Source: an uncultured Actinomycetes bacterium (GTDB lineage: Bacteria; Actinomycetota; Coriobacteriia; Coriobacteriales; Atopobiaceae). From it: a DNA stretch of 47,978 nucleotides. How positions within the stretch are numbered: the stretch's first letter is position 1; each line of letters starts with the position of its first letter. Shown one piece after another: positions 1,801 through 37,109 of the stretch. The stretch covers positions 1 through 47,978 of the forward strand of contig OMTG01000168.1 in NCBI GenBank assembly GCA_900313905.1, written 5' to 3'. A program made the translations under genes and the position numbers. A model generated the notes under the pieces. That model had not been told where the DNA came from. It did no database searches and saw only the letters and a list, made by a program, of their open reading frames with translations.

Positions 1801-1813
1801 CAGGCTTTTCTGA

Positions 1814-1843
1814 GAGCCAGCGGCCCATCGGGGCTGCTGGCTC
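1814..1843 (+). terminator. hairpin between pilin and sortase (attenuator-like)
   Basis: GAGCCAGCGGCCC (1814-1826) pairs with GGGCTGCTGGCTC (1831-1843), 13 bp with one G-T, around a 4-base loop. No T-run follows, so it is more likely a partial terminator or an mRNA-stabilising or processing hairpin than a full stop. It sits in the only sizeable gap between pilin and sortase. Confidence 0.55.
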
Positions 1844-1871
1844 CACGATGCGTTGAGGAGGTGGCGCAGAC

Positions 1872-2747
1872 ATGGCACGGAGGGGAAGGCAGGGCACATC
1901 TCAGCCTGGTACCCAGGCTGGCAAGAAGAAGCCCAGCTATATCCCTGAGATCCTCCTTGTCTGCGCTCTCCTCATCGGCATCGGCATCATGCTCTATCCG
2001 ACCATCAGCGACTGGTGGAACGATATGCACCAGACGCAGGCCATCGCAACCTACCAGCAGGCCGTGAGCGACAACTCCGCTGAGAAGAACCAGGAGATGT
2101 GGGACGCAGCTGTCGCCTACAACAGCTCCCTTCCCCGCGACAAGGGCCGCTTCACGATGACTGATGCAGAGAAGGCAGAGTACGAGAGCCTTCTCGATGT
2201 GACCGGCACCGGCATCATGGGATACGTCGAGATTCCCAAGATCAATGTCTCGCTTCCCATCTATCACGGCACTGATGACACGATCCTCCAGATTGCGGTT
2301 GGCCACATACCGGGATCGTCTCTTCCGGTAGGTGGATTGGGCACGCATTGCGTCATCTCGGGACACCGCGGACTTCCGTCCGCGCGCCTGTTCACGGACA
2401 TTGACCAGCTGAACGAGGGCGACCTCTTCACCCTCAATGTCCTTGGACAGACGCTTACGTATCAGGTGGACCAGGTCCGGATTGTCTGGCCTGATGAGCT
2501 GGACGATCTTGCGATCGACGAGGGGCTTGATCTGTGCACACTCGTGACCTGCACGCCCTATGGGGTGAATGACCATAGGCTGCTCGTGAGGGGGCACCGC
2601 GTGGACAACGCCGCGCTTGCCGTTATCGACGGTGACGCGGTCCAGGTGAGTCCCGCTGTTACGGGGCTGGTGGTGACCGCCACCATCGTGGCCATCGGGG
2701 CTGTGGTGGTTGCGATCATCCGCCTGCGCAGGCGTATGGCGAAATGA
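1872..2747 (+). CDS. srtC: class C sortase (pilus polymerase)
   Basis: Membrane transpeptidase that joins pilin subunits through their LPXTG signals. 291 residues: basic N-terminus, a transmembrane helix around 23-42, the catalytic core, and a second C-terminal helix (about 256-285) followed by RLRRRMAK, the two-helix topology usual for class C enzymes. Catalytic residues are visible: His165 in ISGHRG, Cys227 in TLVTC, Arg240 in LLVRG. A good ribosome binding site (GAGGAGG, 1855-1861) precedes ATG 1872. It follows the major pilin after a hairpin and precedes the minor pilin, so it is the likely dedicated polymerase of this locus. No obvious lid DPW/DPY motif was identified by eye. Confidence 0.95.
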   Translation: MARRGRQGTSQPGTQAGKKKPSYIPEILLVCALLIGIGIMLYPTISDWWNDMHQTQAIATYQQAVSDNSAEKNQEMWDAAVAYNSSLPRDKGRFTMTDAEKAEYESLLDVTGTGIMGYVEIPKINVSLPIYHGTDDTILQIAVGHIPGSSLPVGGLGTHCVISGHRGLPSARLFTDIDQLNEGDLFTLNVLGQTLTYQVDQVRIVWPDELDDLAIDEGLDLCTLVTCTPYGVNDHRLLVRGHRVDNAALAVIDGDAVQVSPAVTGLVVTATIVAIGAVVVAIIRLRRRMAK

Positions 2748-2778
2748 GAAGGCTTCGATCTTCGAGGGGCTGACAGAT

Positions 2779-3771
2779 ATGCAGATGGCTAGCAAGCAGA
2801 GCCAAGAGAGAAAGGCACTGGGATATCTCCTGGTCTGTGCCTTGATGATGGCTCTTGCCCTTGTGTGGGCAAGGCCGGCTTGGGCTCTTTCAGCAAGTGC
2901 GGGGCAGCGAGTCGATGCCTCATCTGAGTGCACCATCACCTTCACCAAGTGCCCTGCCGAGGGGCAGCGTTTCACGGCCTATCTTGTCGCCACAATGGAT
3001 GCTGACGGCAGTCTCAAAGCAGTCGATGCCCTTTCCGATGCGGTGGATACGACAGGCATCGATCCCAGCAGCTTCACTGCGGGCGACATGACGGCAGAGC
3101 AGATCCGCGAGGCTGCCCTTTCCTGGCAGGGCTACATCATGAGCCGGAGCGGCTCTTTCACTTCCAAGAGCGTCTCAGTCCAGAATGGCACCTGTGTCCT
3201 CGCCGGCCTCAAGCCGGGCCTCTATCTCGTCTCTGCGGATAGCATCACGGTCGGAGGCACGACCTACATCTCGAGCCCCTATCTCATCTCGCTTCCGGCA
3301 CTGAACGACGAGGGGACCTACATCTACCAGCGCGAGGTGGAAGCGACCAAGATCTCGAAGACCCAGAGCCCGAAGTATCGCAATGTCGTGCAGAAGCTCT
3401 GGAAGGGCACGGGAACGCGTCCGGATTCGGTCCATGTGAAGATCTATAACGCCAGCGAGCTCTTTGCCGAGGTCGACCTCAACGCCAGCAACAACTGGAC
3501 CTACGAATGGGAAGGCCAGGGCGACTGGTCGGTCGCGGAGGATACGGTTTCGGGCTACAAGGCTTCCGTCAAGAGCTCTGCCTCTGAGCAGGATGAGACC
3601 ACGACGACCACCTTCAAGATCACGAACACGGCTCCGACGACCACCAAGAAGACGGGCATTGCCGACATGAGCGATACCAACTGGCAGCCGACTGCCCTGA
3701 TCCTTCTGGGGATAGGCGTCGTCTGCGTTGCGGTGGCGCTCATCCAGATCCGTGGCAGGAAGGACAAGTAG
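2779..3771 (+). CDS. minor/basal pilin-like protein with Cna-B domain, no LPXTG
   Basis: Predicted surface protein of about 330 residues: signal peptide or anchor (hydrophobic stretch ending WARPAWA), an N-terminal fimbrial domain to about 190, a Cna-B-type domain about 195-293 (VVQKLW, then RPDSVHVKIY, then NNWTYEW), and a terminal hydrophobic helix with tail RGRKDK. The expected LPXTG is replaced by a degenerate TKKTGIAD segment, so sortase anchoring is uncertain and it may simply stay membrane-anchored. I chose ATG 2779 because GAGGGG lies 9 bases upstream; the frame stays open further left into the sortase gene (to 2710) but has no good ribosome site there. Lies between the two sortase-like genes. 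Confidence 0.8.
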   Translation: MQMASKQSQERKALGYLLVCALMMALALVWARPAWALSASAGQRVDASSECTITFTKCPAEGQRFTAYLVATMDADGSLKAVDALSDAVDTTGIDPSSFTAGDMTAEQIREAALSWQGYIMSRSGSFTSKSVSVQNGTCVLAGLKPGLYLVSADSITVGGTTYISSPYLISLPALNDEGTYIYQREVEATKISKTQSPKYRNVVQKLWKGTGTRPDSVHVKIYNASELFAEVDLNASNNWTYEWEGQGDWSVAEDTVSGYKASVKSSASEQDETTTTTFKITNTAPTTTKKTGIADMSDTNWQPTALILLGIGVVCVAVALIQIRGRKDK

Positions 3772-3773
3772 CC

Positions 3774-4463
3774 ATGCTGGTCCCCTGTCCTGACAGAGTC
3801 GATGCCGCAGGTGCGGGTGCAGGCACCAGAGCTGAGGTTCCGGTGCAGGTGCAGCATGCTGCCGAGCGGAAGGGCGCCAAGGACGAACGCCACAGCAGGC
3901 GTCTCCTGCATGCAGGCATTGCATTCCTTGCAGCTGCCGCTCTCGTGGCTGGTGCAGGGCTTGCCCATCTGGAAGCGAGGAAGGGCGAGAGCGCACGCCT
4001 GTGCGCCGATATCCTCTCCACGCTCGATGCGACAGCGCTGGCAGGCGATGGGGAGACGGAGGATGCAGGCGCTTTCGATACGGCTGCGCTTCCTGTTCTC
4101 CAGACAGAAGGCGTGGATGTGGCCGGACAGCTCGAGGTGCAGGGGATTGGCATGAGGATTCCGGTGGCGGCTGAGGGAGCAGATTCCTCCCTGGTTCCCA
4201 CCATCGTGGAGGCCCGGGAAGGCGAGCTTGCCATCTGCGGGCGCGCCTACGAGCAAGGAGAAGGAACGGCGCTCTCCAGCATCACAGAGGTCCCCATGGG
4301 GAGCGATGTGGTGTTCAGGCAGACAGATGGCACGACTACGACATACAAGGCGGTGGCAGCAGGAGTGACGGACAAGGAGTTCAACGACAATTTCGATCTT
4401 CTGCTCTACAGCCAGGATGCATTTGGACAGAAGAGCTGGATGGGCTGCATGAAGGCCTCCTGA
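3774..4463 (+). CDS. sortase-fold membrane protein, catalytic residues apparently lost
   Basis: 229 residues, start 2 bases after the previous stop, ribosome site AGGAAGGA. An unusually long Ala/Arg-rich N-terminus is followed by a transmembrane helix (about 45-64) and a region that lines up by eye with sortases: VAGQLEVQGIGMRIPV resembles the usual entry strand, AICGRAYEQG lies where ISGH should be (Arg157 for His), and LLLYSQDAFG lies where TLxTC should be (Gln214 for Cys). The end, SWMGCMKAS, has no catalytic Arg. Cys225 is close to the end but is not in a TLxTC context. Best read as a non-catalytic sortase relative (scaffold, chaperone or regulator of assembly) within the pilus operon. 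The fold assignment is inference; the missing residues are plain in the sequence if the alignment holds. Confidence 0.6.
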   Translation: MLVPCPDRVDAAGAGAGTRAEVPVQVQHAAERKGAKDERHSRRLLHAGIAFLAAAALVAGAGLAHLEARKGESARLCADILSTLDATALAGDGETEDAGAFDTAALPVLQTEGVDVAGQLEVQGIGMRIPVAAEGADSSLVPTIVEAREGELAICGRAYEQGEGTALSSITEVPMGSDVVFRQTDGTTTTYKAVAAGVTDKEFNDNFDLLLYSQDAFGQKSWMGCMKAS

Positions 4464-4520
4464 CAGGGTGGAAGCGCAGGAGCATTTCAAGGCAGGTCAG
4501 CGATTGCTAGGTGAATGGAT

Positions 4521-7500
4521 ATGAGCAAGTTTTCCGACAGAGTGCGTCAGATGCTCAAGGACAACCATAGATGGAATGTCCAGCGCGGCTGGGTGGCTGC
4601 GGGAGCATTGGTCCTTGTGGTGGCCGTCTGCGCGATGCTGACGGGCCGTGCCACAGCATTGGTGGGGCAGGATGCCCTGAAGAATGCCCTGACCGATAAC
4701 AGCAAGCTCTATTGGGAAAGCCCCAATGCCGGCGAGACTGGCTGGACGGCCGTCGACGAGAATACGCCAGTTGCTGGCGACTCCGCGCTCAGGCTGCGCC
4801 TTGCCTTCAAGCTGTCTTCAAACCAGCTCGATGATACGAAGGCCCTCTCGTACAAGCTCCCTGAGAGCCTCACGCTCCCTGACAGCGCGGACGGCAAGAC
4901 CATCGCCGTATACGATGGCGCTAATGCCGCCACGGCAGACGAGACAGGGGACACCCAGATCGGCTCTGCCACCATCAAGAACAATGTCCTTACTCTGACG
5001 CTCGATGCCACTGGATCGGAGTCTGCCAAGAGCGGGACTGCTGGCACCTCGACGGAAAAGTCTTCCGACGCGGCTGGCTCTGCATCCAAGGCAGCCGAAA
5101 TCTCCGGCTTCGTGGATCTCGACTTCACGTTCGATGAGCTGAAGCTGGACGACGACGGAACTGCCGCACTCAGGCTCAGCAGCAGCCGTGTGCTGCATGT
5201 GACGGAGGCGGCTGCCGAGACCAAGGCGGTGACGGCCAATGCAACCTCCGATGAGGAGGGCGCATCTTCGGCGGCATCAGAGAATGATGAGACAGAAGCC
5301 GCAATCAGCGCAAGCACAGAGGCTGCAGCAAAAGCCGCTCCGGCTGCGATGCTCGCTTCATCGGATTCCACGGCGTCAGATACCAGCTCATCTAATTCCT
5401 CGTCGTCCAGCTCTACGCACGCTGGCACGGATTTCACGCAGTATCTGACCTCGAATGCGGGGGTTCAGAAGCTTGTCGATGGCAAATGGACGAACGTGAC
5501 GGAGGTCACCGAGGGCGACACGGTCCGCGTGAATCTTGCCTATACGCTGCCCGCGAACACGCTGAACAGCACAACCGAAACCGGCAGGACCATCTACTGC
5601 CAGCTGCCGACGGGCATCACGCCCAACGAAGCGGCTTCCGGTCGCGTGACGAACACAAAGGGCGAAGAAGTAGGCTCCTACACCATCACCACCGACGGCT
5701 TGGCCACCATCGTCTTCGACCAGAGCGCAGTCGAATCGGAATCGGGAGCCATCGAGGGCACGCTGTCCTTCTCTGGCACCGTCTCAAAGCTTTCGAGCGA
5801 CGATAGCGGCACCTACAACCTTGGCGGCGCCTCGACCACCATCACCATCAAGAAGAAGACGACCACGGAGACTACTGACCTCAAGGTCGAGAAGTCCGCG
5901 CCCACGGTCAGCGATGACAAGACCACGGCCTCGTATACCGTGAATCTGTCGTCGGAAAAGGGTACGGGCGGCGAAAACGTGTACTTCTCCGACACCCTGA
6001 CCGGCACCAATGCCACACCTGACTTCGACGCCGATTCCATCACTGTCGTGAAGGTGGATGCTTCGGGAAACAGATCGACTGTCACAGGCTTCGAGAAGAA
6101 GTGGCAGAAGGGTAGCGCAAGCAATAAGTACCGCTTCGACACCACCCTCCCGGCCCTGGCAGCGAGCGAGCATTACGAGATTACCTACAATGTGAACATC
6201 AACGCAGACGCAACCGCCAGTTCCGTGAATGTCTCAAATACCGCAGATGGCCGCACCGACCACACGAATCGCGTGTGGGACACGAAGAGCTTCGGGTGGG
6301 GCACCTCGGTTGCGAAGTCGGGCTGGTACAACAAGGAAAACAACACCATCCATTGGGACATCCGTGTCGATCCTCACGGCGGCAGCATCGTAGGCCAGAA
6401 GGTATCCGACGTCCTGCCCGATGGCCTCAAGCTGGCTGGCAGCTATTACGTTAAGGGCGATGATGGCACGATGCTGATCAATGCGAATGGCTGCAACGGG
6501 GCTGCCGGCGATTCCAGCATCAACTTCACCTTCCCCTCGACGATGGATACCGGAACTGTGCTGACCAATCCCCAGAAGCAGCAGGCATACACCATCTCGT
6601 TCGACACGACGGCTCCCGCCGACAACAAAACGGTGACCAACTCCGCAACGGGCACGGACACCTCCGGAAAGACCTCCACCGGTCAGACCGGCGTTTATGT
6701 CGAGCACCGCACCTATGATGTGAGCAAGGCATACGTCAGTGACGAGGCCTCGCCTTCAAAGGACAAGGACCGTCGCCTGAGCTGGACGTCTACCATCACG
6801 CTGCCGGATACGAATCTGGCGAATTTCGAATACACGGACACTATCGAGAACGCCACGGATGGAAACGGAACCGACCTGGGTGCAGACAGCCATTATGCCG
6901 CGGCTGGTGAGCTCGAGAAGTATCTCGCCACCGATCAGCATCTGGTAATCAACTTGAGCGATGGTTCGCAGTACGTCTATCGCGGCTACACCGCCACGAA
7001 GGACCATGTCATCAAGAACGGCGCCGAGGCTGCAACCGACGACGTGGATATCAAGGTGACGTACTACGATGCCAACGGCAATGAGGTCACGCCGAGCGAC
7101 GCGAACTACTCCACGCACATCAAGAGCTTCAAGGTCTCGGTGACCGTGGCCAGCGGCGTCGAGGTCGTCGCGAAGAACATGGTGCTCAGCGGCTACCAGA
7201 CTTATCTCAATAGTTCGGCGGGCACAAGCGGCGATACGTGGACGGCCAAGAACAAGGGCGAGATCAACGGGAAAACGTCCGAAGCCGCGCACGCATATCC
7301 CATTCCGAAGATGTTCGACAAATCCGTCCGCGTGAAGGACGGCAACGCACCCGACGCGTTCTCGAGCGGCAGCGCGAGCATCACATTGGATTCGCTGAAG
7401 AACCAGCTGGAGTATCGTCTGCTGCTGTTCACGGACGCGAGCACGGGTAGCACCATCCAGGTCACGGACACCCCGCCCGCCGGCATGGAGATCGTGGACG

Positions 7501-9467
7501 GCTCGGTGTATGCGCGCTTCTACGTGAACTCGTACGACGAGCACCAGACGAACTACGACGACGGGACGACGTTCGTAGATGGTGCGAACAGCACGACAGG
7601 CGCGAACCCGACGTACACGGCCACGAAGAACAGCGACGGCACCACGACTGTGGTGTTCACCATCTCGAATTATAAATATAGGAGTGGATACCCGCAGATC
7701 GCCCTGCACTACAAGACGACCGTCGGCAGCGACAGCTATTGGAACAACCTGTCGAATCTGAACAAGACCTACGAGAATACGGCTTCGTGGAACGGCAATA
7801 CGGACTCGAACAAGACCAACGTCACCCGCGAGATCAAGAACGTGGAGAAGTCGGGCGAGCAGCTTGAGGACAGCAGCGGCAACCCCCAGAACGTTATGCG
7901 CTACTACGTGGATATCAATCCCGCGGCCAAGGACCTTGACGGCTCATCGGACGTGCTCACGCTCACCGACACCTTCAGTGACATGAGCAAATATTCCCCC
8001 GAGCTGTTGATGGAGACGGTGCATCTGTACGCCTACGACGCGAGCGCCGAGCACCACAAGGGCGCCGAGATCGACTCCAGCCGCTACACGTTGACGTACG
8101 ACTCGTCGACCGCAACCATCACGGTGAAGATTCCGGACAAGCTGGCGTGCGTGCTGCAGTACGACTATCGCATTGACGAGAACACGCTTGCGTCGAGCAA
8201 TTCCGTGACCAACACCGCGAAACTGAGCGGCAACTGGTCCACGTCGAATTCCACGCAGCTGAAGGAGGTCAAGTCGCACGCCACGGCCACGCACCGCAGC
8301 ATCAAGCTGTACAAGGTGGATGCCGACAACTACCGTAAGCTTCTCCCAGACGCCGTATTCAAGCTAGAGAGGTGGGACAGCTCGAGCAGCGCCTGGACGA
8401 CCGTGAACAGCTCGGAGGAAACCGGAAGCGATGGCATCCTGACATGGGACCTGATAGGCACCACGTCCAATCCGGCGGAAATCAGCGTGAACACGCTCTA
8501 TCGTCTGACAGAGACCAAGGCTCCCGAAGGCTACGCGCTAGATGGAACGCCACACTACTTCATCTGCCGTGACGACGGTGCGAGCAACGATACCGCCTGG
8601 GCCGCTGCCGGCGGTTCCAGCGCTACGGGAACGCAATCGGGCACCACGGTCCAGCAGTCCGATACGACGTTCTTCAACTATTCGGGTGGAGCGTTCTACG
8701 TGCCGAACAAGTACACGCGCCTGACAGTCACCAAGAAGTGGGCTAACGCGGACGGCACAAACATGGATGCGCCGTCGGGCGCCAGCGTGAAGGTGCAGCT
8801 CTATCAGAGCAAGCAGGAGGCCGACCCGGACGATACGTGCGCCGTGACGATCACGTATAAGGGCAACGAGTCCAATCCGGGTTGGAAGCCTGGCGGCACC
8901 ATCACGCAGAACGTCAAGCGCGGGACGTCGCTGAAGTTCACCGTCTCCAACTGGCATATTAAATACGATGTCACCATCGGTGGCGAAAAATCGTCCTACG
9001 AGAACAGCACCGTTGAAAGCCGCCAGATTAGCGTGTCATCGTCTGCGACGCAGGGTTCGACGCTTGACATCCTCGTGCAGGAAACGGATGCAGCGAACGC
9101 CCCCGCTGTGACATTGGATGAGTACACTGCCCCCAACACCATCTTGACGGGTGGGACGGCATACGGCGACCCGGTGACGCTGCAGGATGGCGCCTGGTCG
9201 CACAGCTGGGACAACCTTCCCACCACCGATGCGGACGGCAACCAGCTGCGCTACACCGTGAAGGAGGAGGGGGTTTCCGGGTACGTCGCGTCGTACACGA
9301 ACAACGAGGGCACCCAGACTGGCAACATCACGGTGACCAATACGGAGCAAGGCTACGAGCTGCCCGAAACGGGCGGCGCAGGATCTAGTGGCATCGTCGC
9401 CGCTGGTGCTGCGATAGCGGCAGGGGCTGCTGCAGCATTGGCATGGCGGAAGAGGCGCCGGGCATAG
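4521..9467 (+). CDS. giant LPETG pilus-tip adhesin / surface protein
   Basis: About 1648 residues. N-terminal basic region and signal helix (about 25-45), a first globular module, a Ser/Ala/Thr-rich low-complexity linker (about 235-310), then a long series of immunoglobulin-like isopeptide-type modules with recurring D-T-hydrophobic segments (for example FSDTLTG, LTDTFSD). Towards the end comes a SpaA-type module with E-box LTETKAPEGY (Glu1331), a Cna-B module (TVTKKW ... YTVKEEGVSGY), and the sorting signal LPETG (1614-1618), helix and tail RKRRRA. Very likely the adhesive tip subunit attached by the neighbouring sortase. AGGTGA at 4509-4514 gives the best spacing to ATG 4521; ATG 4515 is the in-frame alternative. 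Ligand unknown. Confidence 0.88.
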   Translation: MSKFSDRVRQMLKDNHRWNVQRGWVAAGALVLVVAVCAMLTGRATALVGQDALKNALTDNSKLYWESPNAGETGWTAVDENTPVAGDSALRLRLAFKLSSNQLDDTKALSYKLPESLTLPDSADGKTIAVYDGANAATADETGDTQIGSATIKNNVLTLTLDATGSESAKSGTAGTSTEKSSDAAGSASKAAEISGFVDLDFTFDELKLDDDGTAALRLSSSRVLHVTEAAAETKAVTANATSDEEGASSAASENDETEAAISASTEAAAKAAPAAMLASSDSTASDTSSSNSSSSSSTHAGTDFTQYLTSNAGVQKLVDGKWTNVTEVTEGDTVRVNLAYTLPANTLNSTTETGRTIYCQLPTGITPNEAASGRVTNTKGEEVGSYTITTDGLATIVFDQSAVESESGAIEGTLSFSGTVSKLSSDDSGTYNLGGASTTITIKKKTTTETTDLKVEKSAPTVSDDKTTASYTVNLSSEKGTGGENVYFSDTLTGTNATPDFDADSITVVKVDASGNRSTVTGFEKKWQKGSASNKYRFDTTLPALAASEHYEITYNVNINADATASSVNVSNTADGRTDHTNRVWDTKSFGWGTSVAKSGWYNKENNTIHWDIRVDPHGGSIVGQKVSDVLPDGLKLAGSYYVKGDDGTMLINANGCNGAAGDSSINFTFPSTMDTGTVLTNPQKQQAYTISFDTTAPADNKTVTNSATGTDTSGKTSTGQTGVYVEHRTYDVSKAYVSDEASPSKDKDRRLSWTSTITLPDTNLANFEYTDTIENATDGNGTDLGADSHYAAAGELEKYLATDQHLVINLSDGSQYVYRGYTATKDHVIKNGAEAATDDVDIKVTYYDANGNEVTPSDANYSTHIKSFKVSVTVASGVEVVAKNMVLSGYQTYLNSSAGTSGDTWTAKNKGEINGKTSEAAHAYPIPKMFDKSVRVKDGNAPDAFSSGSASITLDSLKNQLEYRLLLFTDASTGSTIQVTDTPPAGMEIVDGSVYARFYVNSYDEHQTNYDDGTTFVDGANSTTGANPTYTATKNSDGTTTVVFTISNYKYRSGYPQIALHYKTTVGSDSYWNNLSNLNKTYENTASWNGNTDSNKTNVTREIKNVEKSGEQLEDSSGNPQNVMRYYVDINPAAKDLDGSSDVLTLTDTFSDMSKYSPELLMETVHLYAYDASAEHHKGAEIDSSRYTLTYDSSTATITVKIPDKLACVLQYDYRIDENTLASSNSVTNTAKLSGNWSTSNSTQLKEVKSHATATHRSIKLYKVDADNYRKLLPDAVFKLERWDSSSSAWTTVNSSEETGSDGILTWDLIGTTSNPAEISVNTLYRLTETKAPEGYALDGTPHYFICRDDGASNDTAWAAAGGSSATGTQSGTTVQQSDTTFFNYSGGAFYVPNKYTRLTVTKKWANADGTNMDAPSGASVKVQLYQSKQEADPDDTCAVTITYKGNESNPGWKPGGTITQNVKRGTSLKFTVSNWHIKYDVTIGGEKSSYENSTVESRQISVSSSATQGSTLDILVQETDAANAPAVTLDEYTAPNTILTGGTAYGDPVTLQDGAWSHSWDNLPTTDADGNQLRYTVKEEGVSGYVASYTNNEGTQTGNITVTNTEQGYELPETGGAGSSGIVAAGAAIAAGAAAALAWRKRRRA

Positions 9468-19929: not shown

Positions 19930-22900
19930 TTGCGCGCGTTACATATCTCATCGGAGAGCACCTATCGCAGGCCTTTTGGCGCTGCCCCCGCAGGAAGCAC
20001 CATCGAGCTTTCACTGGATGTCTGGGACGATCCTGAAGCGACGGCAGAGATTCGCACCTGGATCGACCCCGATGGGGAGACCCTCTATCCGATGACGGGG
20101 ACTCCCGAGGACGACCACGTGCATTTCACGGGCTCCTTCACCGTGAAGGACCCTTCCATCGTCTGGTATTACTTCAAGATCCATGGCTCCGATGGCAGCG
20201 TCAGCTACTACGGCACACTGAATGGCGCCACCTCGGGCGAGGGCGCGCTCTTCGAGTATGAGCCCTCGAGCTGGCAGATCTCGGTCTACCTGACCCGCGA
20301 TGTCCTGCCTGAGTGGTACAAGAAGGGCATCGTCTACCAGATCTTCCCGGACCGCTTCCATCGCGGCAAGGACTGGGAGGAGCGGGCCGAGAAGGCGCTC
20401 ACCACCCACAAGAACGGCCCCGAGCGCCGCATCGTGGAGGACTGGTACCAGCCGCCCCGCTACCAGCGTGACGGAGAAGGCCGCATCCAGGCCTGGGACT
20501 TCTACGGCGGCACCCTCGAGGGCATCGAGGAGAAGCTCGACTATCTGGAGGCCCTGGGCGTCACCATCCTCTATATCAACCCGATCTTCGAGGCAGCTTC
20601 CAACCACCGCTATGACACGGGCGACTACATGGTGGTCGATCCGATGCTCGGCGACGACGAGGCATTCTCCGAGCTCTGCCGCAAGGCGGCCGAGCACGGC
20701 ATGTCCGTGATGCTTGACGGCGTCTTCAACCACACGGGCTGCGACTCGAAGTACTTCAACAAGTATGGCAACTATCCCGATGTGGGCGCCTTCCAGAGCG
20801 AGGACTCCCCGTACCGCGACTGGTACAAGTTCGGCGACGACGGCGAGTATGCTGCCTGGTGGGGTGTCGACGACCTGCCGGATGTGCGTGCCGACAATCC
20901 TGAATACCATGACTACATCTGCGGCAAGGACGGCGTGATCCGCCACTGGATGCGCCTCGGCGCCCGTGGCTGGCGCCTCGATGTGGCCGATGAGCTCCCC
21001 GAGCCTTTCATCCGTGACATCAACACTGCTGCCCGTGCCGAGAAGGCGGATGCCGCCATCATCGGCGAGGTCTGGGAGGATGCCTCCAACAAGATCTCCT
21101 ACGGCGAGCCGAGGCACTATCTCCTCGGCGGCGAGCTCGATTCCGCGATGAACTATCCGTTCCGTGGTGCCGTCCTCGATTTCCTGCTGAACAAGGAGGA
21201 TGCACATGTGACGGCGCAGCGCTTCGAGCAGCTCTATGAGAACTATCCGCATGAGGCATTCTATTCTGCCCTGAACCTTCTGGGCTCCCATGACAGGAGC
21301 CGCATCCTGACGCTTCTGGGCGGCGGCCCCGACCCTGATACGATGTCCGATGCGCAGAAAGCTGCCTTCCGCCTGAACGACGGTCAGCGCGGCCTTGCAA
21401 AGGGACGTCTCTGGGATGCAGCGCTGCTGCAGATGACGATGCCAGGGGTGCCGAGCATCTACTACGGCGACGAGGCCGGCTGCGAAGGCTACACCGACCC
21501 CTACAACCGCGAGCCTTTCCCGTGGGGCCGCGAGGACAAGGACTGCTTCAACATCTATCGCAACGCGATTGCCATCAGGAAGTCGCTGCCGGTGCTTGTG
21601 GATGGCGATTTCAAGCCGTTTGCCGTGAACGACGATGTCTTCGGATTCACACGCTCTGACGGCGAGACGACCGTGATGGTGCTCGTGAATGGTAGCCTCA
21701 AGACCCGCCATGAGTTCGGCGTGCCGATGATGGACGAGACTGTGGACGATATCGTGAGCGGGCAGGATCTCGAAGTGGTGGACGGGAAGGTCCAGGTCGG
21801 CCTCTGGCCGCTCGGCACCTCGGTCCTCTACTTCCACAAGGAGCATATGCTCGAGAAGCCGCTCGAGCCCGGCATGGGCGTCCTCTGTCACATCACGTCG
21901 CTTCCGAATGGCGGCCGTCCCGGCACCATGGGCAAGCCTGCCTATGATTTCGTGGACTACCTTGCCGCAGGCCACCAGCGCTACTGGCAGATTCTGCCAG
22001 TCAACCCCTGCGACGACCATGGCAGCCCCTATGCAGGCCTTTCCGCCTTCGCTGGCAACACGCTTTTGATCGAGGGGACAAAGGAGGAGGTGCTTGCCGA
22101 GGCCCGTGCCATCAAGGATACGGACAAGGGCTATCTTGCCTTCTGCAAGAAGGAGGCAGCTTGGCTCGAGCCCTATGCCATCTTCCGTGCCATCAAGCAC
22201 CTGCAGAAGGAAGACTGCTGGCAGACCTGGCCTGAGAAGTACCGCGACTACTCGCCGGAGCTTGCGAAGGACAAGGACCTTGTCGATCTCATCTCCTACC
22301 ATAAGAAGCGCCAGTACCTCTTCGACCGCGAGTGGAAGGCCCTGAAGGAGTACGCCCACAAGAAGGGCATCTCGCTCATCGGCGACATGCCGATGTATGT
22401 CTCTGCCGACTCCTCCGATGTCTGGTGCCACAAGGACTTCTTCATGCTCGACGGCGAGGGCAATCCAGCCACGGTGGCAGGCTGCCCGCCCGATCAGTTC
22501 GCGGCCGATGGCCAGATCTGGGGCAACCCGGTCTACAACTGGAAGCGCATGGAGGAGACTGGCTACAGCTGGTGGATGCAGCGCTTCAATCGCGCCTGCG
22601 AGCTCTACGACTACGTGCGCCTCGACCATTTCCTGGGCTTCTCGTCCTACTTCGGCATCCCTGCCGGAAAGACCGGACGCGACGGCCTCTGGCACTTCGG
22701 TCCGGGCACGCGTCTCTTCAAGCAGGTCTATGAGAAGCATGGCGCCCTGCCCTTCATCGCAGAGGACCTGGGCTCGATCACGCCTGCCGTGCATGCGCTT
22801 GCGGTCAGCTGCGGCTTCCCGGGCCTCGATATCATCCAGTTCAACGACGGCGATGTGCGCCAGGGCTATAAGCCAGTGCACAACAAGATCGCCTGCTCGG

Positions 22901-23187
22901 GCACCCATGACAACCAGACGCTTCTGGGCTGGGTCAAGAGCCGCTTCGGCGAGGACGGGGCAGAGGAGCTCGCAGAGAAGCTGCTCGAGAGCGTGCTTGC
23001 CTCTGACGCGAAGGTCGCGATCGTGCCACTCCAGGACATCCTCGGGCTCGACGATACGGCCCGCATGAACGTGCCGGGCAAGGCCGATGGCAACTGGACA
23101 TGGCAGGCAGACGCAGAAGACATCGAGGCATCGCTTCCGCATCTTGCGGAGCTTGCCGAGAAGAGCGGACGCGCCACCGAGGCATAG
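19930..23187 (+). CDS. GH13 amylase/pullulanase fused to GH77 4-alpha-glucanotransferase
   Basis: Bifunctional maltodextrin/glycogen-breakdown enzyme, 1085 residues, no signal peptide and so cytoplasmic. Residues 1-115 are a CBM34-like beta module. About 120-640 is a neopullulanase-type GH13 domain: YQIFPDRFHRG, DGVFNHTG, nucleophile Asp351 in GWRLDVADE, Glu380 in IGEVWED, and LGSHDRSR. From about 645 comes a MalQ domain: ITSLPNGG, nucleophile Asp899 in VRLDHFLGF, Glu945 in IAEDLG, Asp994 in GTHDNQT. TTG 19930 is the only plausible start; the frame is closed by a stop at 19870-19872 and GGAGAGACAGG lies before it. Codon 4 is the rare TTA. Ends in a perfect hairpin. The MalQ half probably recycles short dextrins released by the GH13 half. 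Confidence 0.93.
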   Translation: MRALHISSESTYRRPFGAAPAGSTIELSLDVWDDPEATAEIRTWIDPDGETLYPMTGTPEDDHVHFTGSFTVKDPSIVWYYFKIHGSDGSVSYYGTLNGATSGEGALFEYEPSSWQISVYLTRDVLPEWYKKGIVYQIFPDRFHRGKDWEERAEKALTTHKNGPERRIVEDWYQPPRYQRDGEGRIQAWDFYGGTLEGIEEKLDYLEALGVTILYINPIFEAASNHRYDTGDYMVVDPMLGDDEAFSELCRKAAEHGMSVMLDGVFNHTGCDSKYFNKYGNYPDVGAFQSEDSPYRDWYKFGDDGEYAAWWGVDDLPDVRADNPEYHDYICGKDGVIRHWMRLGARGWRLDVADELPEPFIRDINTAARAEKADAAIIGEVWEDASNKISYGEPRHYLLGGELDSAMNYPFRGAVLDFLLNKEDAHVTAQRFEQLYENYPHEAFYSALNLLGSHDRSRILTLLGGGPDPDTMSDAQKAAFRLNDGQRGLAKGRLWDAALLQMTMPGVPSIYYGDEAGCEGYTDPYNREPFPWGREDKDCFNIYRNAIAIRKSLPVLVDGDFKPFAVNDDVFGFTRSDGETTVMVLVNGSLKTRHEFGVPMMDETVDDIVSGQDLEVVDGKVQVGLWPLGTSVLYFHKEHMLEKPLEPGMGVLCHITSLPNGGRPGTMGKPAYDFVDYLAAGHQRYWQILPVNPCDDHGSPYAGLSAFAGNTLLIEGTKEEVLAEARAIKDTDKGYLAFCKKEAAWLEPYAIFRAIKHLQKEDCWQTWPEKYRDYSPELAKDKDLVDLISYHKKRQYLFDREWKALKEYAHKKGISLIGDMPMYVSADSSDVWCHKDFFMLDGEGNPATVAGCPPDQFAADGQIWGNPVYNWKRMEETGYSWWMQRFNRACELYDYVRLDHFLGFSSYFGIPAGKTGRDGLWHFGPGTRLFKQVYEKHGALPFIAEDLGSITPAVHALAVSCGFPGLDIIQFNDGDVRQGYKPVHNKIACSGTHDNQTLLGWVKSRFGEDGAEELAEKLLESVLASDAKVAIVPLQDILGLDDTARMNVPGKADGNWTWQADAEDIEASLPHLAELAEKSGRATEA

Positions 23188-28961: not shown

Positions 28962-29046
28962 GGGGGCGTGGCGGAATTGGCAGACGCAGCGGACTTAAAA
29001 TCCGCCGCCGCAAGGCTTGCGGGTTCGAACCCCGCCGCCCCTACCA
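28962..29046 (+). tRNA. tRNA-Leu(TAA)
   Basis: Cloverleaf complete: acceptor GGGGGCG with CGCCCCT (pair 1-72 is G-T), D-arm GGCGGAATTGGCAGACGC, anticodon stem GCGGA/TCCGC with loop CTTAAAA giving anticodon TAA, long variable arm, T-arm GCGGG-TTCGAAC-CCCGC, discriminator A, encoded CCA. Reads the rare UUA codon. Confidence 0.95.
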
Positions 29047-29075
29047 GCATTTCATGCTTGATAGAGCTTTGTGTA

Positions 29076-29103
29076 CGCCCTGGGGTGACTCCCGGGGCGT
29101 TTT
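29076..29103 (+). terminator. Rho-independent terminator after tRNA-Leu
   Basis: CGCCCTGGGG (29076-29085) pairs with TCCCGGGGCG (29090-29099) around TGAC, then TTTT at 29100-29103. Confidence 0.8.
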
Positions 29104-29195
29104 GCCGTCCGCAGAGGAGATAGTGCGCAGTTGCGCCCTTCTCTGGCAAACGGAGGGCCAGAGGATTATCATTGCTCTGCAAAGTTGTACAGAAC

Positions 29196-29233
29196 CTGTC
29201 CTGTCTTCAAGTTGTCTTCTCTTTCTAGGACAG
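29196..29233. promoter_or_regulatory. inverted repeat upstream of the regulator-transketolase fusion
   Basis: CTGTCCT (29196-29202) and AGGACAG (29227-29233) are a perfect 7-base inverted repeat spaced 24 bases apart. AAGTTGT also occurs twice (starting at 29182 and 29209, 27 bases apart). Candidate operator for autoregulation by the fusion protein; purely positional inference. Confidence 0.35.
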
Positions 29234-29255
29234 CCAAACAGAAGGAAGTGTTCGC

Positions 29256-31013
29256 GTGGTGGCTAAGAACATGGTGGGGCAGGTCGCAGAAGCCTTCCCC
29301 ATACCGACGCCCGCAGGAACGAGGCAGATCCCGAAAGGGATCGCATCCTCTCCGGCGCAGACGGCGGCAGGCACCACCTTGAAGCAATCCGGCGAGAGCC
29401 AGCTCCTCCATGAGCTGCTCGCGAAGGTCCTGAAGGACCATATCATCTCCGGCAGCTGGCCGGCAGGATCGCGCATCATGAGCGAGCATGCGCTGATGGA
29501 GCGCTATGGGGTGTCGCGGGGCACCGTGCGCCGTGCCATCGGCATCCTCGTGAATGAAGGGCTCCTCGTCCAGCGCAAGGGAAAGGGGACCTTCGTCACG
29601 AAGGCTGGCATGTCCCATCCGGGAGGTGCCCGCCCGCTCTCCTTTGCCCACGCCCTGGCTGAACAGGGGCTGAGCTTCACGACGCAGGTGCTCACCCAGG
29701 AGATCCATCCTGCCCCTGCTGATGTGGCGCAGGAGCTTGGGCTTGCTGCGGGCTCTCCTGTCATGTTCATGCGTCGCGTGAGGAGCGTCGAAGGACGTCC
29801 TGTCGTCTGCCAGGAGAGCTGGTCCAACCTCGAGGCCTGCCCGGGGCTCGCGGATGCCGATTTCATGCAGGAATCCCTCTTCGATGCGGTGGAGCGCTGC
29901 TCAGGGCACACGATCGCGACCTCGAACATGAGGAGCTCGGCCAGGATGGCAGGAGAGGAGCATGGATCCTATCTTTCGATCGATTCATCCGCTCCGGTGC
30001 TCCTGCTGGAGCAGACCATCAGCCTCGACAACCATGTGCCCATCGAGTGGAGCCTCACCTGGCTGCGCTCCGACCAGAGCCTCATGGGCGTCGCCTCCCA
30101 GGACGAGATGAGGACGCCTGTGCAGGCACCTGTCGTGCCGATGCCGGTGCCTGATGAGGAGACGCATCTGGATCCTGGGACAATGCAGCGGCTCGAGCTC
30201 GATGCCTGCGACATACGCGAATCCGTCATCTCCTACGCCGAGCGCTATGAGGGGATGCCCTTCCATTTTGGTGGCGCCCTTTCATCGGCAGAGATTCTCG
30301 CGACGCTCTTCGGCTATGTGATGCATACCGGCAAGGACGGCACGCCCTGGGAGGAGCGCGACCGCTTCGTCCTCTCGAAGGCCCATGCGGCGATAGCGCT
30401 CTATCCTGCCCTCCTGAAAGCGCATCTGGTCTCCCAAGAGGACATCGACCGGGGCCTCTTCGGGCCGGATGCCGTGCTCTTCAAGCATCCCAGAAGAGAT
30501 CCTGCGCGTGGTCTCGAGACCTCAGGTGGCTCGCTCGGCATGGGCCTTGGCTATGCGGCAGGGCTTGCCCTGGCGCTCCGGCGCAAGAAGCTCTCCTCCC
30601 GGGTCTTCTGCCTCGTGGGGGATGGGGAATGCAACGAGGGGAGCACCTGGGAGGCAGCGGCCTTCGCCGGCCACAACAAGCTGGGCGCCCTCACGGTGAT
30701 CGTCGATGCGAATGGCATGCAGCTCGATGGGCCGACCTCGGAGATCCTCGATACGGCACCGCTTGGCCAGAAGTTCGCGGCCTTCGGCTTCGAGACCGTC
30801 GAGGTCGATGGGCACAGCGTCGAGGCGCTTGCCCGTGCCCTCTCCGCTCCCCATCGCCTGCCTAGGGCCGTGATCGCCCATACGACGAAGGGGAAGGGTC
30901 TCTCGTTCGCTGCCGGCAATGTGGCCTGGCACGACCACAAGCTGGAGCGTGGGCTCTGGGATACGGCAAAGGCCGAGATCGAGCAGGAGCGGGAGGCGAT
31001 CATCAATGGCTGA
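29256..31013 (+). CDS. GntR-UTRA regulator fused to transketolase N-terminal half
   Basis: One uninterrupted 585-residue frame with two unrelated functions. Residues 47-116 are a GntR winged helix (AGSRIMSEHALMERYGVSRG, then TVRRA and KGKGTFV). About 126-275 is a UTRA ligand domain of the HutC type, usually sensing a sugar phosphate or similar. A Pro-rich linker (about 286-308) leads to a transketolase thiamine-diphosphate half (310-585): FHFGGALSSAEIL where GHPGG is usual but with its His337 kept, LSKAH (His377), SGGSLGMGLGYAAG, the cofactor motif GDGECNEG at 455-462 with VDANGMQLDG, and TTKGKGLSF then AWH. GTG 29256 follows AAGGA by 9 bases; GTG 29259 is equally possible. Overlaps the C-terminal-half gene by 8 bases. 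Suggests a protein that binds DNA in response to substrate or enzyme state. Domain calls are firm; the function of the union is inference. Confidence 0.9.
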   Translation: MVAKNMVGQVAEAFPIPTPAGTRQIPKGIASSPAQTAAGTTLKQSGESQLLHELLAKVLKDHIISGSWPAGSRIMSEHALMERYGVSRGTVRRAIGILVNEGLLVQRKGKGTFVTKAGMSHPGGARPLSFAHALAEQGLSFTTQVLTQEIHPAPADVAQELGLAAGSPVMFMRRVRSVEGRPVVCQESWSNLEACPGLADADFMQESLFDAVERCSGHTIATSNMRSSARMAGEEHGSYLSIDSSAPVLLLEQTISLDNHVPIEWSLTWLRSDQSLMGVASQDEMRTPVQAPVVPMPVPDEETHLDPGTMQRLELDACDIRESVISYAERYEGMPFHFGGALSSAEILATLFGYVMHTGKDGTPWEERDRFVLSKAHAAIALYPALLKAHLVSQEDIDRGLFGPDAVLFKHPRRDPARGLETSGGSLGMGLGYAAGLALALRRKKLSSRVFCLVGDGECNEGSTWEAAAFAGHNKLGALTVIVDANGMQLDGPTSEILDTAPLGQKFAAFGFETVEVDGHSVEALARALSAPHRLPRAVIAHTTKGKGLSFAAGNVAWHDHKLERGLWDTAKAEIEQEREAIING

Positions 31014-31995
31014 GCCTCTCTTCATAGATGCAGGCCAGGCACTCAGCCTCGATAAGCTGGATTCCCGCCAGGTCTTCGGCCAGGTGATGGAGAAGCTGGC
31101 AGAGCGCTATCCGCTCCTGAGCGTCGTCGTCTCTGACTATGGGCGCAGGCTTGCGCTCGACAAGGTGAAAGAGCAGCATCCTGATGTGGTGGTGCAGTGC
31201 GGCATAGCAGAGCAGAACCAGATCGAGGTCGCCTCTGCCTTGGCGAATGAGGGAGGCCCGGTCTTTGCGGTCTCCTATTCGCCTTTCATCACGGCCCGTG
31301 TCCTGGACCAGATCAGGGTCAACCTCGGCATGATGGGAAGCCCGGTCATTCTCGTGGGGCTTGGCGCAGGATACGCGGTCGGCGAGCTCGGGGCAAGCCA
31401 TATGGGGCTCGAGGACATCGCAGACCTGCGTGCCATACCAGGGATGACAGTCGTGTCGCCCCGGGACAATGCCGAGCTTGCGCTCGTGCTCGAAGAGCTT
31501 GCAGCAGACCCGCGCCCTGCCTATGTGCGCGTGACGACAGGGCCCGCCTCGGAGCTTGCCTGCCAAGGAGGGGTCCGCTCAGGCTTGGGACGAGGACAGA
31601 TTCTGCAGGAGGCAGAAGGGGAGGCTCCTGTTGCCCTCATAGCCACCGGGACCCTCTGCACGCAGGCACTCGAAGCGGCCCGCATCCTCAAGGCCGAAGG
31701 CACCGATTGCCTCGTGGCTGAACTGGCGACGATCAAGCCGCTCGACGAGGGCTTCCTGGAGGGGCTCCGCGGCTGCCCTATCTGGGTCTCCATCGAGGAG
31801 CATTCCTGCATAGGAGGGCTTGGCGGCGCGTTGGCGGAGCATATCGCAGGACGTGCAGCATCGCCCGCTCTTATACGCTGTGCCGCTCCTGATGCCTATC
31901 TCGAGGCAGATGTGCAGCAGGAGCTCAGGCATCGCGCTGGGCTCGATGCAGAAGGGATTGCTGCAACGGTCAGGAAGGCGCTCGGCCGCCTCTAG
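31006..31995 (+). CDS. transketolase C-terminal half
   Basis: 329 residues: pyrimidine-binding domain with GIAEQNQIEVASALA (Glu69 is the cofactor-activating acid) and the C-terminal domain (ATGTLCTQALEAARIL). ATG 31006 lies inside the end of the fusion gene (ATGGCTGA overlap), with GGGAGG upstream, so translation is coupled and a 1:1 complex with the fusion protein is likely. Split transketolases include the housekeeping archaeal type and specialised ones such as apulose-4-phosphate transketolase AptAB; no transporter or sugar kinase neighbour here reveals the substrate. Confidence 0.93.
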   Translation: MAEPLFIDAGQALSLDKLDSRQVFGQVMEKLAERYPLLSVVVSDYGRRLALDKVKEQHPDVVVQCGIAEQNQIEVASALANEGGPVFAVSYSPFITARVLDQIRVNLGMMGSPVILVGLGAGYAVGELGASHMGLEDIADLRAIPGMTVVSPRDNAELALVLEELAADPRPAYVRVTTGPASELACQGGVRSGLGRGQILQEAEGEAPVALIATGTLCTQALEAARILKAEGTDCLVAELATIKPLDEGFLEGLRGCPIWVSIEEHSCIGGLGGALAEHIAGRAASPALIRCAAPDAYLEADVQQELRHRAGLDAEGIAATVRKALGRL

Positions 31996-35067: not shown

Positions 35068-36075
35068 CTACATGCTCCAGTCGAGGCCTTCCTCGTCGCA
35101 GAAGCGCTTGGCGCTCTCCACGAACCAGGACTGGCTCTCGCACCAGGAGATGAAATCGGGGGTGTCGGCCACGATGGGGTCTGCCTCGTGGACCGCGAGC
35201 ATGGCCTCCTCGAAGCTCATCGGGGCATAGCTGGGACGGTCAGGGATGCAGATCTCCACATAGACTGGCTTCAGGAGCGCGTAGGCGCCACCACGCACGA
35301 GCGTGTCATAGCCCCTGAGGGCGCGCTTCGCTGCCGGCATGCGCCCAAGCTTGAAGAGCAGCAGAACCCTGCCCAGATGCCACCAGGAGTTGCCATGATG
35401 CTGCACCTGGCCTTCGAGCTCCTGGAACTTGTCCTCGTCCTCGAGGCGGGCTGCTGCAAGGGCAAGGCTGTTCCTGATGCCCAAGGGATCTGCAGGGGAG
35501 ACCTGGAGGGCCTCCTCCCCCAGATGAAGGGCCATGCGGTAATGGGCGGTATCGACGCAGCTCCTGACGGTCGCAGCGCGGAGCCTCAGGCGGGGACGGA
35601 GATAGACATCGCTCCAGGCGTCCTGCACTGCTCCGTTCTCGGTCGGCACGTGGTCCAGAAGGTCTGCCAGCGGCCCCCGTTCCCTGCTCTCGGCATCCTC
35701 GAGGCGCATGAGGGCACCCAGGAGGGAGAGCGGGTCGAGATCCTTTGCCTGCTCCTCCATGAGGGCGGCGTCGAGACAGGAGGGGTCGAGCGATTCTGCC
35801 TCTCGGCAGGCTGCGATGAGGGCAGAGAGGCGCCGTGTGCGCTCCTGCATGAACTCATCATCTGAGCGCATATCATCGTCCTTCACCGAGGCATAGTAGC
35901 GCTCGAGGGCACTTGCCAGGATCTGGAAGGCCCGCTGGTCGTCCGTCACGATGAAGGAGGAGAGGTTCTCATGGACATCGCGCCTGAGCTCCTCGAAGGC
36001 GGGAGGCGTGAGGCCGCCCAGCCGCCGGGCCCGCTCACGTGCGCAGCGCTCCTCGAGCTCTTCGCGTGCCCTCAT
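35068..36075 (-). CDS. TPR-like repeat protein B, unknown
   Basis: 335 residues, soluble, helical and acidic. DPLGIRNSLALAAARLEDEDKF, then QHH ... LLLFKLGRMPAAKRALRGYD resemble tetratricopeptide helices, and DVYLRPRLRLRA resembles segments of ST7-type TPR proteins. ATG 36075 overlaps the upstream stop (ATGA), so translation is coupled. Clearly related to the upstream gene product around residues 190-275 (AA.ALA.LED..F..L...QH...W). Likely a protein-protein scaffold; no function can be assigned. Confidence 0.75.
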   Translation of the reverse strand: MRAREELEERCARERARRLGGLTPPAFEELRRDVHENLSSFIVTDDQRAFQILASALERYYASVKDDDMRSDDEFMQERTRRLSALIAACREAESLDPSCLDAALMEEQAKDLDPLSLLGALMRLEDAESRERGPLADLLDHVPTENGAVQDAWSDVYLRPRLRLRAATVRSCVDTAHYRMALHLGEEALQVSPADPLGIRNSLALAAARLEDEDKFQELEGQVQHHGNSWWHLGRVLLLFKLGRMPAAKRALRGYDTLVRGGAYALLKPVYVEICIPDRPSYAPMSFEEAMLAVHEADPIVADTPDFISWCESQSWFVESAKRFCDEEGLDWSM

Positions 36076-37109
36076 CGTCCATCACCCTTCTGGCCTTGGT
36101 GGCTGAGCGTTCCCCTGCGGCCGGTCTGCGCCTGGAGCGCGGGGACCTCCGATGCGATCCAGGAGGCGAGGGTGCCCCGCTCCTGGGAGTCGCGCCCTTC
36201 CTGCAGAAGGACGGCTGCTTCGGATACGGCGAGGATGAGCTCGTCTTCGGATCCCGTCTCGACCGGCAGGCGTGAATAGACCCCATCGGGCAATTCATGC
36301 TGCTGGATGAGGACTGTATCGGCCTCGGGGTAGCGCTCCAGGATATGGCGGAGGCCGACTCGCGCCTCATCGATGAAGCCAAGGCGGAAATCGATGCTGA
36401 TGTTCGCGATATCGAGCCAGGCAGAGCGCGGTAGGCTCTCGTGCTGCACGTACTCGAGGAGGTCGGTGAAGCCGTTCGCATCCTCGAGCTTCGCAAGCGC
36501 ATAGGCTGCTGTCAGGTGCGCCCCTGCCTCATCGGAGGGGTCGAGCCTGATCGCCTTCTTCGCGAACTCTATGCTCTGACGGTAATGGCCACAGATGAGG
36601 GCACGGTCCGCTTCTGCTGCGATCCAGCGCAGATAAGGGGCAAGGGCCAGCCGGCAGATGAGGCTGCGCTCCTCTTCGGAAGTGGCAGTCTTTGCCTCTT
36701 CGGCCATCTTCTCGCTCGTTGTCTTGGCCTCTGCCTCATGCTCCAGGAGATAGCGGTAGTAGCCCTCGAAGGTGTTCGACTGGGCAGCCGCCAGCATGCG
36801 CTGGGCATCCAGGTTGCCGCGGTCGAGCACGAGCGCTTCGGAGAGGAGCTTCTGTGCCTTCGTGACCAGGTCATCCACAGCATTGTCTGCAGCGAAGGGG
36901 AGGCGGTAGTCGATGATGAGGGCAGCTTCGGAGACGAGATGGAAGGCGCGGTCGGAATCCTTCTGGGGAAGGGAGTCGCGTTCCTTGGCATACCGGGTGC
37001 CGAAATCCTGGAGCTCGTGGGCTGCTTCGGAGACCGATGAGGAGGCTTCGCTCTGGCAGAAGCGAAGAACCATGTGCTCATAGTCTTCCTGGACCGGATC
37101 GAATGCCAT
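36072..37109 (-). CDS. TPR-like repeat protein A, unknown
   Basis: 345 residues, helical, acidic, no signal peptide. AIRLDPSDEAGAHLTAAYAL, then LEDANGFTDLLEYVQHE and RLGFIDEARVGLRHILERYP are TPR-like, and VLDRGNLDAQRMLAAAQSN supports this. The C-terminal tail is basic (TGRRGTLSHQGQKGDGR). ATG 37109 with GGAGGAG six bases upstream. First gene of a two-gene minus-strand operon with its paralogue, divergent from cstA. Confidence 0.75.
   Translation of the reverse strand: MAFDPVQEDYEHMVLRFCQSEASSSVSEAAHELQDFGTRYAKERDSLPQKDSDRAFHLVSEAALIIDYRLPFAADNAVDDLVTKAQKLLSEALVLDRGNLDAQRMLAAAQSNTFEGYYRYLLEHEAEAKTTSEKMAEEAKTATSEEERSLICRLALAPYLRWIAAEADRALICGHYRQSIEFAKKAIRLDPSDEAGAHLTAAYALAKLEDANGFTDLLEYVQHESLPRSAWLDIANISIDFRLGFIDEARVGLRHILERYPEADTVLIQQHELPDGVYSRLPVETGSEDELILAVSEAAVLLQEGRDSQERGTLASWIASEVPALQAQTGRRGTLSHQGQKGDGR

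Follow-up and report, generated by a model that had tools for sequence, protein, structure and literature searches.

A GntR-UTRA regulator fused to the N-terminal half of a split transketolase in the family Atopobiaceae

In a contig from an uncultured bacterium of the family Atopobiaceae (OMTG01000168.1), one open reading frame runs from a GntR winged helix through a UTRA domain into the N-terminal half of a transketolase, and the next gene encodes the missing half of the enzyme. Is this protein real, and what could a transcriptional regulator do with half of an enzyme? The whole stretch of DNA analyzed, 47,978 nucleotides, is referred to as the window. The features of the locus are listed below with their window coordinates.

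28962..29046, + strand: tRNA-Leu(TAA), marking by synteny the conserved chromosomal site of a variable cassette
29184..29219, + strand: putative autoregulatory operator GTTGTACAGAACCTGTCCTGTCTTCAAGTTGTCTTC, four TGT half-sites at spacing 11-5-11 forming two imperfect dyads, from motif searches
29240..29248, + strand: ribosome binding site candidate AGAAGGAAG, read from the sequence
29256..31013, + strand: fusion gene GntR-UTRA-transketolase N, 585 aa, from the open reading frame, Pfam and relatives
29421..29597, + strand: GntR winged helix, residues 56-114 (PF00392, 1.5e-15)
29661..30077, + strand: UTRA domain, residues 136-274 (PF07702, 1.1e-33)
30081..30155, + strand: disordered linker, residues 276-300 (pLDDT <50; length varies in relatives)
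30180..31010, + strand: transketolase N half (cofactor-binding domain), residues 309-585 (PF00456; best solved relative 6yak)
31006..31995, + strand: transketolase C half (pyrimidine-binding and C-terminal domains), 329 aa (PF02779, PF02780; 6yaj/6yak)

The initial annotation, made from the sequence alone, described a single GntR-UTRA-transketolase N frame of 585 codons, and the open reading frame at 29256-31013 and its Pfam matches bear this out. The Transketolase_N match covers residues 337-563 of the fusion (4.2e-28). The motif GDGECNEG is at residues 455-462 (30618-30641), and His337 and His377 are present, all at the residues given in that annotation; two further conserved active-site histidines, His411 and His559, are present in the window fusion as well. 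The GTG at 29256 was taken as the N-terminus, with the GTG at 29259 or a later ATG as alternatives. The C-terminal half had been assigned to an overlapping gene, and indeed the partner gene encodes Transket_pyr and Transketolase_C domains and shares 8 nt (31006-31013) with the fusion gene. It probably starts at the ATG at 31006 rather than with the longer mechanical open reading frame from 30919, and the 8-nt overlap of the two genes is seen again in relatives. With its N and C halves in two adjacent genes, the enzyme is a split-gene transketolase. The N-terminal GntR winged helix and the UTRA domain with its phosphate-binding residues place the regulator part in the HutC subfamily.

The counts of conserved residues, operators and linkers given here refer to 21 aligned fusions. 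Near the N-terminus, before the GntR domain (window 29286-29310), FP(T/I/V/A/M)P or FPV is observed in 16 of them, and also in the stand-alone regulator of locus L122. Residues 11-20 of the fusion are predicted with moderate confidence, and their flanks are predicted to be disordered.

The fusion is real and is kept across nine genera. It was found in 25 of 140 Atopobiaceae genomes with 45-75% identity. In 24 genomes, the window's own included, the match extends over most of the length without a stop, and the relatives are 51-75% identical; the 25th genome, G042, has a full-length diverged copy with 45% identity. The carriers include the cultured Olsenella intestinalis, O. massiliensis, Parafannyhessea umbonata (Atopobiaceae) and Atopobium sp. 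BS2, and some of the fusion-carrying assemblies consist of a single contig. A disrupted copy in G044, whose C half contains ambiguous bases, was left out as evidence. The fusion is absent from 257 other genomes of the order, and none was found in the phylum sample or in the plasmids searched. Other phyla were covered by one peptide-pattern scan and may hold independent fusions. The possibility that a sequencing or assembly artefact joined two genes has practically no probability left and was rejected, as the same fusion is seen in 24 further assemblies, single-contig genomes and cultured strains among them. The initial annotation had considered a missed stop or frameshift between residues 275 and 310, and homologues always encoded as two genes. 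The corresponding stretch of the relatives contains neither a stop nor a frameshift, and the same open fusion in 24 other genomes of the family answers the second point.

GntR-UTRA regulators, split transketolases and enzyme-fused GntR regulators of the MocR type are each already known, and it is their combination that appears to be new. The fusion is apparently undescribed so far: a search of open-access papers revealed none that brings together GntR, UTRA, transketolase and fusion, in agreement with the earlier statement that no equivalent was known. Like the GntR/HutC regulators NagR/YvoA, DasR and PhnF, the fusion has a winged helix and a UTRA domain, a phosphate-binding arginine pair and operator-like dyads before its own gene, whereas the C-terminal transketolase half is found in the fusion only. 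It shares with the split transketolase of Carboxydothermus hydrogenoformans (6yak) the division into two chains, N and C, the cofactor ligands and an expected alpha2beta2 assembly, and the structure match of the enzyme half has an identity of about 38%; however, the C. hydrogenoformans enzyme has no regulator domain, and the fusion subfamily is a separate clade with an SDYGRR motif. MocR/PdxR/GabR proteins likewise join a GntR winged helix to a cofactor-dependent enzyme fold. That fold is a PLP-dependent fold type I aminotransferase instead of a thiamine diphosphate (ThDP) enzyme, and these proteins have neither a UTRA domain nor an enzyme half completed by a second gene, while the fusion has both. 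The C-terminal half of the fusion is Transketolase_N and not a fold type I PLP enzyme, as judged from Pfam and the structure match, and it is not a member of the MocR group.

Upstream of the fusion gene are two genes that we take, by eye from the sequence, to be mfd and a divIC-like gene, followed by a ppx/gppA gene and the tRNA-Leu. In most relatives, the fusion locus is followed by two opposite-strand genes without a known function. Two adjacent related proteins of 335 and 345 aa, neither with a Pfam match, are encoded in the window at 35068-37109, and this pair is kept beside the fusion locus in most of Atopobiaceae. At the same site, genus g35 and genome G020 have the transketolase pair without the regulator. 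Other relatives have a stand-alone GntR-UTRA gene, 50-57% identical to the regulator part of the fusion, followed by a TPI-like gene, yjbQ, PTS IIB, galactitol-type IIC, class II aldolases and PTS IIA. Some fusion genomes also hold this PTS operon elsewhere, with its own stand-alone regulator. The site behind the tRNA-Leu (window 28962-31995; loci L083-L122) resembles an exchange hot spot, with the fusion and the C half, the transketolase pair alone, or GntR and the PTS operon as alternative cassettes.

Phylogenetic analysis grouped the transketolase N halves of the fused and the regulator-less loci in one clade, separate from other transketolases (100/99). In the regulator tree, 17 of the 21 fusions form one clade (98/92), and genus g34 and genome G005 fall outside this main fusion clade with weak support. 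A single origin of the fusion was not rejected with the enzyme tree (p 0.51) and was weakly rejected with the regulator tree (p 0.024). The two trees together are compatible with one origin of the fusion, with several, or with a domain swap.

Two other parts of the window were recorded. At 19930-23187, a frame of 1085 aa joins an alpha-amylase and a 4-alpha-glucanotransferase (PF00128, PF02446) at the end of an apparent glycogen gene cluster. The region 277-9467 holds a cluster for a sortase and pilus-type surface proteins, which includes a Cna_B/SpaA protein of 1650 aa.

The UTRA domain gives some indication of its ligand. The best solved matches of the regulator half are NagR/YvoA and DasR. 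NagR holds the phosphate of its ligand via Thr90, Ser165, Ile166, Tyr167 and Arg133/Arg135 (PMC4333415). Residue mapping placed Arg174 and Arg176 of the window fusion at Arg133 and Arg135 of NagR, and the counterparts of these arginines are invariant in all 21 fusions; at the position of Ser165, Ser or Thr is observed. Several sugar-reading residues are unlike those of NagR, yet conserved among the fusions. Glu145, Tyr167 and Tyr228, which contact the sugar in NagR, correspond to Gln, Phe and Leu in the fusion. Since the phosphate arginines are kept and the sugar-reading residues are changed, the ligand is probably a sugar phosphate other than GlcN-6-P.

Upstream of the fusion gene, GTTGTACAGAACCTGTCCTGTCTTCAAGTTGTC contains four TGT with the spacing 11-5-11. 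This exact spacing of four TGT occurs at 7 fusion loci, each time before the fusion gene, and nowhere else in ~0.77 Mb. Of the 21 fusion genes, 15 are preceded by the 16-mer TGTNCANAACNTGTMC with up to 2 mismatches allowed; so are 5 or 6 of the 9 stand-alone regulator genes, but none of the 9 regulator-less transketolase genes at the same site. The chance expectation, by density, is 0.024 hits per region. At this threshold 6 of the 21 fusion genes have no operator, which is partly accounted for by uncertain gene starts. With an extended motif (up to 1 mismatch), the site before the fusion gene is the sole match in G000, G051 and G052. Because the motif is present before the fusion and stand-alone regulator genes and absent before the regulator-less ones, it tracks the GntR domain rather than the enzyme. 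It appears to behave as the operator of a GntR-UTRA regulator should, and autoregulation through binding at this site would be the simplest reading.

Motif searches in G000 and two congeneric genomes revealed no conserved regulon beyond the own promoter. An exact 16-mer at G000:C2:1769, between DegV-like and NhaA-like genes, has no counterpart in the two congeneric genomes and was judged to be a chance match. The PTS operon was rejected as a target in trans: in G045 and G120 this operon comes with a stand-alone GntR of its own, and a search of its upstream region gave no match to the motif.

The cofactor and metal ligands, as defined for the Carboxydothermus enzyme (PMC7661550), were checked in both parts of the enzyme: the Lys and His of SK.H, GDGE, Asn and the Lys in KGKG, and Glu and Phe in the C half. 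They are intact in 20 of the 21 aligned fusions, that is, in the window and 19 others, the exception being G042. The fusion enzyme is a paralogue, because all fusion genomes that were checked encode one or more additional transketolase N genes, and for the same reason the idea of the fusion as the sole transketolase of the cell was rejected. The SDYGRR motif of the C half (window 31132-31149) is kept in fused and unfused members of the subfamily except G042, with ADYGRR instead in one or two members, and other transketolases have different residues at this position. The motif may reflect a changed substrate.

It is rather probable that the protein is an autoregulating, sugar-phosphate-responsive repressor of the HutC subfamily that is also a subunit of a split transketolase. 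The stand-alone relative of the regulator, which heads a sugar-PTS and aldolase operon, speaks for this proposal. The further transketolase N genes, the unusual SDYGRR, the lack of a conserved regulon beyond the own promoter and the 6 fusion genes with no operator weigh against it. The features behind this proposal are read from the sequence: the fusion, its conservation, the intact helix-turn-helix, the UTRA phosphate site, the cofactor site, the operator-like repeats and the gene overlap. An alpha2beta2 enzyme would assemble from two copies each of the fusion and the C half, as in the solved split transketolase, and the two GntR-UTRA arms would pair on flexible linkers into the usual dimer. 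The dimer would bind the tandem TGT dyads before its own gene, so that the protein would repress the two-gene operon from which it is made. It would leave the DNA when the UTRA pocket takes up a sugar phosphate, probably one that this transketolase consumes or produces. Repression, ligand, enzyme activity and stoichiometry are what we infer here. The initial annotation had suggested a DNA-bound complex of four or more chains, and one of four chains is plausible.

The linker bears on how closely the two halves cooperate. Structure prediction, built from 29 rows, gave two confident modules with a disordered joint at residues 276-300, and the predicted enzyme half matches 6yak with a TM of 0.89 (by target length). 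Across the fusions, the linker length varies between 26 and 64 residues. Such a linker could be cleaved, or translation could restart within it, so that separate regulator and enzyme subunits would be the working forms. Apart from the disorder, Met residues in the linkers of the window protein and the G051 protein agree with this, but no linker Met is conserved among the 21 fusions, most of which have none, and no conserved cleavage motif was seen. An internal start for the enzyme half was rejected on the lack of a conserved Met, and separate working forms are very unlikely overall.

The flexible and variable linker is also what would be expected if the fusion were a passenger that arose when a stop was lost between neighboring operon genes, fixing in what proportion and when regulator and enzyme are made while their functions do not interact. 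This is quite possible, if not what we expect. On a Cryobacterium plasmid, RpiB-like, TK-N, TK-C and GntR genes are unfused neighbors, and the regulator-less pair persists in one genus; however, the retention of the fusion in nine genera is unexpected if separate genes serve equally, and a repressor produced at the level of an enzyme is costly.

The diverged fusion of G042 points in another direction. Its two genes lie at the following positions of locus L102.

L102 8952-10754: G042 fusion, 600 aa, open frame, with a destroyed active site and an intact regulator half
L102 10744-11733: G042 C half, 329 aa, open frame, with the active site destroyed

Here, His337, His377, His411 and His559 are replaced by Arg, Tyr, Ser and Gly, Asp456-Gly457-Glu458 by Ala-Ser-Asp, and the C half no longer has its aromatic pair. 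Among the residues invariant in all other fusions, none is changed in the GntR (0/14) or UTRA (0/24) domain, but 29 of 84 N-half residues and 22 of 72 C-half residues are. The branch length of G042 is 1.26 for the enzyme and 0.39 for the regulator. The GC content by codon position is still coding-like, and the N half has no stop, whereas neutral simulation to the identity level of G042, with indels not counted, gave a mean of 4.1 stops and never reached zero in 200 runs. Thus, in this one draft genome, the enzyme half resembles a pseudo-enzyme retained for something other than catalysis, with decay alongside a residual function as a conceivable alternative. A precedent is BzdR, in which a shikimate kinase domain lost its activity and turned into an effector domain (PMC3602430). 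Both combine a DNA-binding domain with an enzyme domain of lost activity, which acts as the sensor in BzdR; BzdR differs in its XRE-type HTH and in having no separate sensor domain, while the fusion has UTRA.

The enzyme itself might be a sensor, so that DNA binding would be gated by bound substrate, by the cofactor or by assembly with the C half; the initial annotation had suggested that the regulator senses substrate through its own active site. We consider this rather doubtful. The untouched regulator invariants of G042, beside the loss of catalytic residues in both halves with open frames, would fit it, as would the resemblance to BzdR and the established parallel of MocR. On the other hand, G042 is a single draft genome that keeps its regulator half despite the destroyed active site, and the fact that catalysis can be lost does not imply signaling by the dead domain; the linker is disordered and variable in length, and the protein already has a UTRA sensor with conserved phosphate arginines. 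In that less probable case, the protein would read flux or thiamine state besides the UTRA ligand. A sensing enzyme would extend the proposal of a HutC repressor that is also a transketolase subunit, and a passenger would be a restricted form of it; neither is exclusive of it, and the two differ on cross-talk between the halves. The length and disorder of the linker favor loose coupling, and G042 favors a non-catalytic use of the enzyme fold.

One locus in one family thus has four states: a stand-alone regulator, a stand-alone enzyme, a fusion with an intact active site, and a fusion with a destroyed one. It is a tentative possibility that a one-component regulator gained a ThDP enzyme as its second sensor, and that this enzyme became a dead, purely regulatory domain in the G042 lineage. 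To our knowledge, this would be the first case of an enzyme turned regulator for a ThDP enzyme, and the first with half of the enzyme supplied by a second gene. If true, both stages of the transition from enzyme to regulator would be alive in one bacterial family. The four locus states and the cultured strains make the timing and manner of such a transition directly testable.
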